Source: Candidatus Saccharimonadota bacterium
GTDB taxonomy: Bacteria; Patescibacteriota; Saccharimonadia; Saccharimonadales; Saccharimonadaceae
NCBI GenBank assembly: GCA_017515285.1
Contig: JAFWGN010000005.1
Coordinates: forward strand, 1 to 64,000
DNA: 64,000 bases
Direction of reading: 5' to 3'
The first letter of the stretch is position 1; every line of letters starts with the position of its first letter. This document shows, in pieces, positions 397 through 34,492 of this stretch. The position numbers were made by a program, and so were the translations under genes. A model generated the notes under the pieces. It did not search any database and had not been told where the DNA came from. It saw nothing but the letters and a program-made list of their open reading frames with translations.

Positions 397-613
397 AGTC
401 CTCCTTTTGGTTTAACTGCCTCGAGGCGGACACGTTCCTTCTTAAACAAAATTGGCGCCACAAGGGCAATAACCAAATCACATTCAGTCGCGTTTCCGTT
501 ATCCGAATCAACTTGGTTCCTTATGACGCCAAGCAATGATTCGAATTTCAAAAACTTTGTTCGATAAGCAAAGTGCGACTTTATTAATATAAAATATGAT
601 TTGGTTATTGCTC
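397..613 (-). ncRNA. Structured 5' leader RNA, copy A (predicted H-type pseudoknot)
   Basis: Read as minus-strand RNA: a long stem pairs 597-613 with 464-480 (16 of 17 positions). Inside it 537-545 pairs with 502-510. The loop segment 519-532 pairs with 452-465, just downstream of the long stem, giving a hairpin-loop-to-downstream pseudoknot that ends about 50 bases before the start codon. A smaller hairpin lies at about 555-576. The same layout occurs upstream of the paralogous gene at 34234, with different bases in the long stem. The likely transcription start is at the first base of the long stem. Role inferred: cis-regulation of the surface protein. Confidence 0.7.
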
Positions 614-617
614 TTTT

Positions 618-646
618 ATTTTACCACGAACAAAAAAGCGTGCCTA
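618..646 (-). promoter_or_regulatory. Promoter of the leader A transcript
   Basis: On the minus strand, TAGGCA (646-641) is followed after 17 bases by an extended -10, TGG-TAAAAT (623-618). The start point would fall at 611-613, the 5' end of the long leader stem. The copy B promoter has the same TCTAG(G/A)CA and TGG-TA(A/T)(A/T)AT elements. Confidence 0.6.
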
Positions 647-5422: not shown

Positions 5423-5457
5423 AATCGGGCGCCCTCGCAGTTTTTGAGCGCCCGATT
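5423..5457 (-). terminator. Terminator after the 5613-6689 transcript
   Basis: Perfect 10-bp stem AATCGGGCGC/GCGCCCGATT, followed on the minus strand by TTTTGTTCTTTATTTTT. It closes a 3' untranslated region that contains the GTTCAACC repeat array. Confidence 0.8.
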
Positions 5458-5596
5458 GTTCAACCTAATTTGTTCAACCTTGGTGTTCAACCTTGTCCAA
5501 CCAGTTTTGTTCAACCTTTGGTGTTCAACCGTTTATTTGTTCAACCTGTTCAACCGTTTATTTGTTCAACCTGTTCAACCGTTTATTTGTTCAACC
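5458..5596. repeat. Array of 11 short GTTCAACC repeats
   Basis: Ten exact copies and one variant (GTCCAACC) of the octamer GTTCAACC occur in 139 bases, all in one orientation. The right half is a more regular 23-24 base unit, TTTGTTCAACCTGTTCAACCG with a short TTTA spacer, repeated about three times. It lies between the stop of the PDTG surface-protein gene and its terminator, so it would be in the 3' untranslated RNA as GGUUGAAC. Spacers are too short and too similar for a CRISPR array. Confidence 0.85.
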
Positions 5597-5612
5597 TGTG
5601 TAGAGTTTGCGA

Positions 5613-6689
5613 TTATTTTCTTCGGAGGTTCTTGCGGTAATCTTTCTTCTGCTTTGCGAGTATGAGGAGTGCGACCGCGGCTAGAGCGACGAAGGCGACG
5701 ATGCTAGTGATAACGACGTCTTCCGTGGCGAGATTAAGATTTTTGAATAATCCGCCGGTGTCCGGGACGTCCGGAGCAAGGGGCTGGACGTAGCTCACGA
5801 CGTAGATGGTGCGGGGCGAAGAAATTATTTCATATTCAACCGTATCTTCACCCTGTTCGCCGCTATCTGGATCGATTTCCCCGGGGACGGTCGTCGCAGA
5901 GTAGGCGGTAACAAGGAGGTTATAGTCGCCACTCGGGAAACCGTGTTCCGTGAAGGGGAGGACGATTGTCTTGGTTCCGGCGAGATAGTCGCCGTTTTCG
6001 TCGGGCTCGATTTCGATGACGATAGCTTCATAGAAGAGGGCGTTGCCGTTTCTGTCGACGGGCATAACTTCGATTTTAGCAACGCCGTCGTCGTAGATTA
6101 CGTCGGCAACCGGATTTTGGGTTGTTTCGGCGGAGCCGGTCTGGACCAAGTTTACGGGGACGTAGTCAAATTCGATTGCGTCGCCGGTCGAGGGGCCAAT
6201 CGGACTCGCCGAGACGGCGGTCAAGACGTAGTGGCCGTAGGAAAGGGCGGGAGTATCAGCTTCCGGATTCGGGTCGAAGAGGTTAATCGTTACCGTGTTC
6301 GAGTCGGAATCATAATTGAACGTCGGGTCGAGGCGGGACGGATCCGGGTTAAACCGCGGAAGCGGAACCTCGTGGACCGCGATGACTTCGCCGTCTTCAT
6401 CGAGCTCTTCGTAGCTCAAGGTGAAGTCGACGTAGGTGGAGTTCTCGTAGGTGAAATCCAAGTCAAACGTCGGAGACGTGGTTATGTAGTCCGTCGCGGG
6501 ACTATCGATTTTTATGGACGGGAACTGGTCATAGACCGTAACCCGAATGACATCTGTATGCGAATCGGAAGCATAGGACGCTTCGTCAGCGTACGCTCCA
6601 CTCGCAGGCAGAAAGTAGGCAAAGACGGTCAAGGCACCGACGAATACCAGACCGAGTAGCCCAAGAAAGTTTTTCTTGCGTTTTGGCAT
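5613..6689 (-). CDS. Secreted surface protein with PDTG-type C-terminal wall or membrane anchor
   Basis: 358 residues. Basic start (MPKRKK), hydrophobic signal segment at about 8-29, then a beta-rich extracellular part of about 270 residues with Ig-like sequence (many V-x-V and Y/T alternations). The end has the order of a sortase signal: VPDTGG, about 13 residues later a hydrophobic helix (VVITSIVAFVALAAVALLILA), then a basic tail (KQKKDYRKNLRRK). PDTG with Val in place of Leu is an LPxTG-like variant. No sortase gene is in the window, so the transmembrane tail alone may hold it. The repeat array and a terminator follow. Ligand unknown. Confidence 0.72.
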   Translation of the reverse strand: MPKRKKNFLGLLGLVFVGALTVFAYFLPASGAYADEASYASDSHTDVIRVTVYDQFPSIKIDSPATDYITTSPTFDLDFTYENSTYVDFTLSYEELDEDGEVIAVHEVPLPRFNPDPSRLDPTFNYDSDSNTVTINLFDPNPEADTPALSYGHYVLTAVSASPIGPSTGDAIEFDYVPVNLVQTGSAETTQNPVADVIYDDGVAKIEVMPVDRNGNALFYEAIVIEIEPDENGDYLAGTKTIVLPFTEHGFPSGDYNLLVTAYSATTVPGEIDPDSGEQGEDTVEYEIISSPRTIYVVSYVQPLAPDVPDTGGLFKNLNLATEDVVITSIVAFVALAAVALLILAKQKKDYRKNLRRK

Positions 6690-32248: not shown

Positions 32249-34234
32249 TCAATTTCGGGCGACGCACCGAACGAATTGGGCACAGGCGCGTAGCGGGTTC
32301 CCTCCGTCTCTAATCAACTGTGAACCGGTCCATTGAAAATTCTCTGATGCGCGGGGTGAGTAGTGCATGTTTGGCGTGGACGTTTTCCAATAGCCGTTGC
32401 TTTGGGCATATAATTGCGTCCCGTCCCCGCTCGGATCGTAAGCTCCTCCCTTAACTGGCAAGAAAACATTGCCGTATGGGAGTAGATTTTGCGCCTGCTC
32501 GTAACTTGGCAAAGTCCAGTTTGCCGGGCATACGCTATGTTCAGCTTCGCTCCATGCGGTATCTACTGGTACCGCTACAGTCATAGCCGTTGCGGCGGCA
32601 TAATTATACCAAACCGTCGGAATACCATCTGGGTTTAGACCTTCATGAACTTTTGCCTCCGTGTATGACCACGATATAGAGGCGTCACCGTAGTCAAACC
32701 TTGTCGCGACCGCCACGTCGCTCGTCTCAGGGTCGAGGGTGGTGCCGACAAAGCGGAGGTTATCAACCATCCAACAATCGTCTCCGAGTTTTCTGATTCT
32801 GTAGGAGATATCGTCACGAACATCTTTGAGGGGGAAGGTGGTGGCGACGGAACTAGCCGAATCAAAGGCGGTGGTGTTCTGACAAATACTCCCCGTCATC
32901 TCCTGCATATACTTCACCGCGTTCTCGTTTGCAAGGTCCGGGTGGGGAGTTTGGAGAGAGTTGGCGTAGATGAAGCTAGAAACGAGAGCATCGGAAGAAC
33001 TGGTGCTATGTTCGTCGTTTGCATTGTACTTGCTAACGTAGTCGTAATTGTAGGTACCAATGTTTAGCCAAAAGTCAAAACCTGTTCCGTTAGTTCCGGC
33101 TGGAATTGTGCAAGAAACTTTACCGAGTCCTGCGGTTGTTCCGGTTTCGCTAATCGAGAAAGAGTTAGCTTTGATTGGACAGTTCTTTATGTTTGCAAGT
33201 TGGGCAGAGGTTAAGGCGGTCGGGTCGTAGTTTGCTGTTACCATATCGGAATGGAGGACAAGCCTAACCGTAAGTTGGTTTTCTTGGATAGCGGTTGTGA
33301 CGGCTCCTGCAATCTCGAACTCCAAATCCACCGTCTCTCCGCCTTGACCGATTCTAATGTTACGGTAAAGGTTAGTAGAAACTTCATCAAGCGATGAAGA
33401 ACTCGAGATTGCCGTATAGACTATTTGGTTCGTATAAGCCCCGCTCACGGTATGGTCGTTTACGACTACGGCATAGTAGATGTCGAACTTACTGTTTACC
33501 GTATCTCCGGTTGCAATGCCGTTATTCCCGGAAGAGAAGCCATAAAGATTACTGGTTCCTGCCTTCCAGATTTGTTGGGCAGAACTACCTTCTGGAACAC
33601 CGGCAAAGTTGGCCGTATAGACATTACCGCCATTATTATAAATAAGTGGCGTGTCAAGAAGAGTAGGAGAAAAGACGCTACTTGCAGAGAAGTTAGGATA
33701 AGTTGGCGTAGTAGCAGCAGGGTCTATGGGGACCGGCGTTCCCGGAACGGCATAACCCCAACCGGCACCAGTAAACGGAGTCGGAGACGCCCAAGTACCG
33801 GAAGAAGCGGGAATATAGATGTTTGAGTTGCTAGTAGAATTGTGGGTAAGGTTAAGGTTGTTATTGCTAGAGCCGGAAGAAAGGTAGACCGCATAATAGT
33901 TACCGTTTGTATCTACGTTAATGGTCCTTTTCTTTACGATCATAGTGCCAATGTTGCCGGTAAGGGTATCGAGCTTGGTAGGAACAATCTCGCCAAAGTC
34001 AACATCACCATGCCTAGTATCAGAAATCGGTTCACCGGCTTCAGTTGCGGCAAAGTCTGGGTCAAGAATAAGATAGATGCTCTTTCTAGTGGCGGTGACG
34101 GAGATATCTTCGGCAGCAGAGGCCTCAGAGATTAGGGTTGGAACGAGACAGAAGGCAAGAACAAATAAACCGAGCATGGTGAGACTAGCTCGCAAGGCTT
34201 GGGTGATTAGGTTGATTTCTTTGATTGGTTGCAT
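32249..34234 (-). CDS. Secreted surface protein with FISUMP-type C-terminal domain
   Basis: 661 residues from the ATG at 34234 (AGGAGG 4 bases upstream); a frame reaching 34327 lies within the leader RNA and is rejected. Residues 1-42 form a signal or anchor (TM about 12-35, ending LVPTLISEASA). The next 350 residues are Ser/Thr/Asn/Tyr-rich beta domain. From about 480, YRIRKLGDDCWMVDNLRF, the VWYNYAAAT stretch, CPANWTLPSYEQAQNL, YWKTSTPN and RCVARN are the Cys-flanked motifs of the Fibrobacter succinogenes major paralogous (FISUMP) domain, a carbohydrate- or surface-related fold. Paralogue of the truncated gene at 1-396, with the same leader RNA. Probably a species-specific surface layer or binding protein. 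Confidence 0.78.
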   Translation of the reverse strand: MQPIKEINLITQALRASLTMLGLFVLAFCLVPTLISEASAAEDISVTATRKSIYLILDPDFAATEAGEPISDTRHGDVDFGEIVPTKLDTLTGNIGTMIVKKRTINVDTNGNYYAVYLSSGSSNNNLNLTHNSTSNSNIYIPASSGTWASPTPFTGAGWGYAVPGTPVPIDPAATTPTYPNFSASSVFSPTLLDTPLIYNNGGNVYTANFAGVPEGSSAQQIWKAGTSNLYGFSSGNNGIATGDTVNSKFDIYYAVVVNDHTVSGAYTNQIVYTAISSSSSLDEVSTNLYRNIRIGQGGETVDLEFEIAGAVTTAIQENQLTVRLVLHSDMVTANYDPTALTSAQLANIKNCPIKANSFSISETGTTAGLGKVSCTIPAGTNGTGFDFWLNIGTYNYDYVSKYNANDEHSTSSSDALVSSFIYANSLQTPHPDLANENAVKYMQEMTGSICQNTTAFDSASSVATTFPLKDVRDDISYRIRKLGDDCWMVDNLRFVGTTLDPETSDVAVATRFDYGDASISWSYTEAKVHEGLNPDGIPTVWYNYAAATAMTVAVPVDTAWSEAEHSVCPANWTLPSYEQAQNLLPYGNVFLPVKGGAYDPSGDGTQLYAQSNGYWKTSTPNMHYSPRASENFQWTGSQLIRDGGNPLRACAQFVRCVARN

Positions 34235-34458
34235 AGGCCTCCTTGGGGTTATTGAACCTCGGGGGTTATATACAAAAATGGCACCACGAGGTGCAGAACT
34301 CAAAAGACTTCTAACCGCTTTCCGCAATCAGAATCGATTGGGTCTCCTCATGGTGCCAATTCTAATTCTGATTCACGAAAAAAGTTAGAAATCCAACATT
34401 AGTATCTAATGTGCGGTTACCTGGATATAATCCAGAAACAAAGTCTTGAGTTCTGCAT
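34235..34458 (-). ncRNA. Structured 5' leader RNA, copy B (predicted H-type pseudoknot)
   Basis: Minus-strand RNA: long stem 34441-34458 with 34291-34310 (18 pairs, 2-base bulge), inner stem 34365-34373 with 34326-34334 (9 of 9), and a loop-to-downstream pseudoknot 34346-34358 with 34279-34291 (13 pairs including one G-U). Two further perfect hairpins, CTGGAT/ATCCAG and CATTAG/CTAATG, lie in the 5' arm at about 34413-34440 and 34398-34415. Order and location equal copy A (397-613). The pseudoknot ends about 45 bases before the start codon. Probably controls translation or stability of the surface protein. Confidence 0.72.
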
Positions 34459-34462
34459 CTCT

Positions 34463-34492
34463 ATAATACCACAACCAAAATACTTTTGTCTA
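34463..34492 (-). promoter_or_regulatory. Promoter of the leader B transcript
   Basis: On the minus strand, TAGACA (34492-34487) is followed after 18 bases by the extended -10 TGG-TATTAT (34468-34463). The predicted start point is at the first bases of the long leader stem. Confidence 0.6.

Follow-up and report, generated by a model that had tools for sequence, protein, structure and literature searches.

Surface-protein genes of a Saccharibacteria genome are preceded by a multi-copy leader RNA, in which a long closing stem (P1) and a pseudoknot are maintained by paired base changes and are followed by a near-invariant U-tract. We regard it as a lineage-specific, cis-acting leader module that separates a strong extended −10 promoter from the Shine-Dalgarno (SD) sequence of genes for surface proteins and other accessory proteins. 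Its likeliest mechanism, which we hold with middling confidence, is transcription attenuation: the element sits at +1 of strong promoters, and its terminator arm would be pseudoknotted. The window, that is, the whole stretch of DNA analyzed, covers the first 64 kb of a contig of 72 kb, which belongs to an 850-kb genome that is 98.6% complete. It harbors two copies of the leader, A and B, both on the minus strand, where an earlier note had placed them.

Copy A is read on the minus strand from a promoter at 646–618 through a transcript start at about 613 to the start codon at 396. The −35-like hexamer is TAGGCA (641–646), and the extended −10 element is TGGTAAAAT (618–626). The RNA fold from P1 to the U-tract comprises 170 nt (444–613), as delimited by a covariance model match and assessed by a shuffle test. 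P1 consists of GCAAUAACCAAAUCA (597–611) and UGAUUUGGUUAUUGC (466–480), and the inner helix P3 of AGUCGC (575–580) and GCGACU (486–491). The P5 hairpin (504–543) carries the pseudoknot 5′ arm UUGGCGUCAUAAGG (519–532) in its loop; the pseudoknot 3′ arm CCUUGUGGCGCCAA (452–465) lies directly 3′ of P1, and the U-tract UUUUGUUU (444–451) follows. Further downstream are the SD region AAAAGGAGGACU (397–408) and the 5′ part of a surface-protein gene (1–396) that is truncated by the contig start.

The region of copy B extends from 34494 to 34234 on the minus strand, with the −35-like hexamer TAGACA (34487–34492) and the extended −10 element TGGTATTAT (34463–34471). Its fold of 189 nt (34270–34458, covariance model match and shuffle test) is built from P1 (UGCAGAACUCAAGACUU, 34441–34457, with AAGUCUUUUGAGUUCUGCA, 34292–34310), P3 (AACCGC, 34413–34418, with GCGGUU, 34313–34318) and the pseudoknot arms AUUGGCACCAUGAGG (5′, 34346–34360) and CCUCGUGGUGCCA (3′, 34279–34291). 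The 3′ arm can alternatively take part in a local terminator-like hairpin (34294–34281), and it is followed by the U-tract UUUUUGUAU (34270–34278) and the SD region AAGGAGGCCU (34235–34244). The downstream gene (32249–34234) encodes an exported protein of 661 aa whose FISUMP domain (TIGR02145) scores below cut-off. As the earlier note had pointed out, the promoter elements are alike, namely TAGGCA-17-TAAAAT for A and TAGACA-18-TATTAT for B, both with TG before the −10. Elsewhere in the window, a repeat tract of TTCAACC / TTGTTCAACC occupies 5455–5600, downstream of the minus-strand gene at 5613–6689.

A DNA search of the genome with copy A as query matched a third copy. A protein search found 19 FISUMP gene places, and reading of the upstream DNA revealed the same leader at 17 of them; L015 is a FISUMP gene with a short leaderless 5′ UTR, and L004 starts at a contig end. 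Covariance model R1, built from 15 leader copies of this genome, gave 19 matches, including A and B, and genes for exported FISUMP-type surface proteins lie directly downstream of 17 of these. The two orphan copies (L038, 1501–1649, and L041, 372–522, in G000) have no adjoining surface gene downstream and are possibly remnants or RNA-only copies. We dropped the idea of a trans-acting guide, as the P1 sequence of copy A was found nowhere else in the genome. Contigs often break within a few hundred bases of leaders (position 1 of the window; C15:1, C17 end, C6:1 and C18:1 in G000; many contig ends of relatives). These breaks fall in the near-identical 5′ ends of surface genes; repeats are one possible cause, and population variation with recombination at these loci is another. 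Between U-tract and SD, leader L009 of G000 has a GC-rich insert (GCGAGCGAGGCAATAGCCCG...GCGACGGCGGGCGGGCGCGACCCG), parts of which recur in L010 and L021 of the same genome; other leaders are without it.

To find the paired structure, we searched exhaustively for helices on a MAFFT alignment of 15 paralogs, made from sequence only with no structure supplied. The top two covarying helices were P1 (columns 2–17 with 179–194; 16 bp, 91% paired, 3.3 pair types per pair) and a helix that involves the P5 loop (columns 110–124 with 198–212; 15 bp, 94% paired). In the latter, the P5 loop (GGCACCAUGAGG) pairs over 12–15 bp with the strand that directly follows P1 on its 3′ side (CCUCGUGGUGCC); because P1 encloses P5, this helix is a pseudoknot. 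The 36 pairs of the alignment were 90.3% paired, with double changes in 24 of them; none of 500 shuffles did as well, and slid controls reached 35–45%. The inner helix P3 (ACCGC/GCGGU in many copies) was 77% paired, and the interior of the fold varied between copies in both length and sequence. We then enlarged the set to 94 copies from this genome and relatives, aligned with a model that did not include the pseudoknot. P1 (17 bp) was 96.6% paired with double changes at all 17 pairs, and the pseudoknot core was 95.5% paired. Over all 41 pairs, pairing was 93.2% against 37–47% in slid controls, and double changes occurred in 36.

Energetic comparisons agreed with the covariation. Each paralog's own P1 strand was its best partner in 17 of 17 cases (−23.2 versus −7.9 kcal/mol with foreign strands), and the pseudoknot helix of the same 17 paralogs amounted to −23 to −30 kcal/mol. 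The folds of copy A (−56.8 kcal/mol, z = −5.7) and copy B (−68.8 kcal/mol, z = −6.2) each beat the average dinucleotide shuffle by more than 23 kcal/mol, and none of 200 shuffles per copy was as good. Cells with G-U far outnumbered those with A-C among the 94 copies, by 127 to 9 in P1 and 135 to 31 in the pseudoknot; therefore the RNA of the minus strand, in the case of A and B, is the folding and selected strand. These results strongly support the view of the earlier note that a working RNA fold has been conserved in structure. They bear out its remarks that P1 differs wholly in sequence between A and B yet is fully complementary within each and that some mismatches are G-U pairs in the RNA, and the further copies and the folding advantage over shuffles that it had proposed to look for were both found. 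It had not singled out the most telling element, the pseudoknot in which the P5 loop pairs with the strand after P1 and which the U-tract follows.

Sequence conservation is concentrated in the pseudoknot arms, the base of P1 and the U-tract, with little else. The GC-rich stem and U-rich tract of an intrinsic terminator or attenuator are represented by the pseudoknot stem and, directly after its 3′ arm, at least U4 in 93 of the 94 copies. The longest U run there is 5 in 82 copies, 6 in five, 4 in six and 3 in one, and this tract is conserved more than its A-rich partner strand. Outside it, only two U's among the unpaired positions of the 94 copies were conserved at 80% or more. The earlier note had proposed conserved loop bases as ligand or protein contacts. 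Of the 17 paralogs, only two have CGGAAA (TTTCCG on the plus strand) and five have GATTC, and the bases are not conserved among the 94 homologs; their agreement in A and B is coincidental, and a contact role is not supported. In 72 of 90 copies, the first position of the model is preceded by the −10 element at a distance of 4 nt, and this fixed spacing indicates that the RNA starts at P1, at about +1. The U-tract is present on one strand only, and the promoter lies outside the inverted repeat.

The 3′ arm of the pseudoknot can also form a local hairpin, whose pairs are formed in 94% of cells and whose five pairs are all present in 50 of the 94 copies; it is weak or absent in L005, L017 and L020. 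A terminator scan called the local hairpin of copy B with its U5 terminator-like, and the same scan of copy A did not call the arm a terminator.

Of the 147 genomes of the genus, 66 gave covariance model matches to the leader, with up to 20 scored copies each. Across the order, 51 of 393 genomes and 16 of 156 genera had it, three other families included, and copies outside the genus were mostly single. A sample of the phylum gave 10 of 380 genomes, nine in the same family and one doubtful, G685 from another family of the phylum, whose match (E 1.2e-4) was unconvincing by eye. We also located named contigs with the full motif by a DNA-pattern scan. They belong mainly to Ca. Saccharibacteria, many being metagenome-assembled genomes from ruminant gut, and the pattern matches in unrelated bacteria were ordinary terminators, with the same 3′ arm and U-run as short local hairpins. 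Full or partial motifs occur on contigs labeled Oscillospiraceae, Clostridia (rabbit gut) or viral (L244, 2678–2824; L234, 1–81; L341, 11423–11268). The downstream surface-protein genes there resemble those of Saccharibacteria, and the contigs are probably misbinned or misclassified.

Within the genus, nearly all genes downstream of the leader start with signal-peptide-like N-termini. Outside it, downstream genes encode a type III-like DNA methylase (N6_N4_Mtase), a Tsp45I-type restriction enzyme and a C5 cytosine methylase as well as TM2 and DUF4352 proteins and a FISUMP protein. Leaders before restriction-modification genes were seen at L162 (1629–1501), L319 (151–285) and L327 (151–286), in G048, G425 and G412. 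These targets in other genera and families suggest a wider accessory-gene regulon. Many genomes of the genus harbor 20–33 FISUMP domains with no leader match, and leaderless FISUMP genes whose start could be placed have a −10 element shortly before the SD and a short 5′ UTR. Thus, the leader is an added module and not a requirement of the gene, and we rejected FISUMP genes as its sole determinant.

The arrangement around the U-tract points to attenuation. A GC-rich arm with U5 stands between promoter and gene, and it has mutually exclusive partners: the far upstream pseudoknot strand and, in most copies, a local strand overlapping the base of P1. Attenuators are built from competing strands that overlap in this way around a U-tract, and for this reason we prefer attenuation. 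Deletion of the 5′ strand of P1 in silico let the upstream loop capture the arm in 12 of 17 copies, giving a nested stem of terminator-like form. Attenuation also agrees with the ordinary terminators of unrelated bacteria that have this 3′ arm and U-run, and with the terminator-like call for the local hairpin of copy B. In our reading, the transcript begins at P1, which closes a multi-helix fold whose P5 loop displays GGCACCAUGAGG. As RNA polymerase leaves the 3′ strand of P1 (P1′), the next 12 nt would pair with this loop, with the U-tract immediately after, and the pseudoknot helix would stand in for the two arms (5′ and 3′) that an intrinsic terminator normally has. Most copies offer an alternative, in which the 3′ arm can form the short local hairpin and excludes the base of P1. 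The winning pairing would set the outcome, either an RNA that ends at the U-tract or read-through into the gene. Termination and its regulation are inferred from this arrangement, as would be any assignment of the ON state to one of the pairings, and the leader probably switches production of the downstream surface proteins on or off. A pseudoknot terminator with a loop of 65–70 nt would be unusual, which speaks against attenuation; so do the arm of copy A, which the terminator scan did not call, and the lack of a specialized NusG paralog beside the leader. Since the state with P1 and the pseudoknot is so stable, the switch would need a factor or kinetic control.

The main rival, which we regard as unlikely but ahead of the other alternatives, is a switch of translation or mRNA processing. 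The strand at the junction of P1′ and the pseudoknot would pair either upstream (with P1 and the P5 loop) or with a 5′ UTR strand near the ribosome binding site and would thereby set ribosome access once the whole leader is made. It ranks as the main rival because the downstream partners would act after the termination decision. A second copy of the pseudoknot 5′ arm was found downstream of the U-tract in all copies tested (11 in G009, 11 in G005 and 9 in G029), and its pairing had a mean ΔG of −36.5, −33.3 and −25.9, respectively, compared with −13 to −16 for shuffles. This second arm (e.g., AAGUGGCACCGCAAGGGGG) lies 15–50 nt after the U-tract in these genomes (e.g., L070, L073, L102) and pairs with the 3′ arm and the U-tract. 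In G014, the downstream strand matches the variable P1′ end of its own copy (own −17.1 versus foreign −12.1 kcal/mol; own best in 7 of 12). The strand in G014 leaders (e.g., L135, L138, L139, L159) is complementary to the own P1′ end plus CACCC and is positioned about 20–60 nt after the U-tract, just before the SD. Pairing of the post-U-tract segment with the SD and start region was somewhat above chance (30% at p<0.05) but weak on average (mean z −1.2), and we did not retain SD sequestration by this segment, which was weakly above chance. Moreover, G000 and G007 showed no second downstream strand, and the near-invariant U-tract would be left unexplained. Because the second partner strand of several species lies downstream of the U-tract, where termination would be beyond its reach, it counts against attenuation and points to a later post-transcriptional role.

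Less probable still is a constitutive stabilizer of the 5′ end, in which P1 at +1 would stack on the pseudoknot, hide the 5′ end and shield abundant surface-protein mRNAs from decay. The position of P1 at about +1 with rigid spacing, the very stable folds and the strong promoters would suit this role, but it needs neither the U5 tract nor the overlapping alternative pairings, and leaderless paralogs with the same promoter type exist. A small-molecule riboswitch, with the P2–P5 region as aptamer and the pseudoknot plus U-tract as expression platform, seems improbable to a greater degree. P1, the pseudoknot, the U-tract and the many paralogous target genes do resemble riboswitch-controlled regulons. 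Against this, no conserved small-molecule pocket was seen in the leader copies; the unpaired conservation among the 94 copies is confined to the U-tract and two U's, the interior is variable in length and sequence, and there was no Rfam match. Rfam 15 matched nothing but tRNA in the window, and the leader copies and the compact leader forms of relatives gave best E values of 0.35–0.96 and 0.83, respectively, the scores of the leader copies lying far below the gathering cut-off. A DNA-level element, such as an attC-like folded recombination site or an invertible promoter, is very improbable: structure kept amid changing sequence typifies folded recombination sites, and this multi-copy family at surface genes has assembly breaks nearby, but the strand-specific G-U excess over A-C (127 versus 9 in P1), the fixed −10 distance, the single-strand U-tract and the promoter outside the inverted repeat have a polarity foreign to the DNA-strand fold of integron attC sites, which lacks transcript strand bias.

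The preferred attenuator can be compared with known systems. Like intrinsic attenuators and riboswitch expression platforms, the leader has a GC-rich 3′ arm followed by U5, alternative partners of the arm and a position between promoter and start codon; it differs in that the 5′ arm lies some 70 nt upstream, within the loop of a hairpin, that the helix is a pseudoknot and that no conserved aptamer core is present. Among pseudoknot riboswitches, the preQ1 type and others control terminators (review PMC11625349). They likewise have a pseudoknot involving the strand that feeds the terminator, but the leader is far larger (150–190 nt, 17-bp P1), with no common sequence and no Rfam match. Processive antitermination leaders of the EAR and LoaP type are structured, pseudoknotted and located at surface-product genes, as is the leader studied here. 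Unlike in those systems, the genomes have no NusG paralog for such antitermination, each with one NusG whether or not it has the leader, and the Rfam EAR family was not matched. Multi-copy cis-regulatory RNAs of surface-protein regulons are known too, c-di-GMP riboswitches among them; these share with the leader one RNA class over many surface genes per genome, but the c-di-GMP families of Rfam were not matched, and sequence conservation is much lower in the leader. We conclude that the leader most likely works like an attenuator and falls in no named RNA family among those tested. A literature search, mostly beyond subscription journals, returned no paper on such an RNA or on any regulatory RNA in Saccharibacteria.

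How Patescibacteria/CPR bacteria regulate their genes has hardly been explored, and here a very strongly supported RNA class reaches 20 or more copies in genomes of 0.6–0.9 Mb. The leader is a possible example of a pseudoknotted terminator. We tentatively suggest, as a possibility short of an even chance, that this is a new RNA class, in which one common knotted attenuator on nearly every member of a large surface-protein family would let an episymbiont switch all of the surface that meets its host, along with restriction-modification genes in relatives, by one RNA-sensed signal; the 5′ arm of the terminator would be delivered by a pseudoknot, and downstream strands may later dismantle this terminator. 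As the leader is tied to proteins that probably contact the host cell, it offers a testable handle on how an episymbiont controls its surface.
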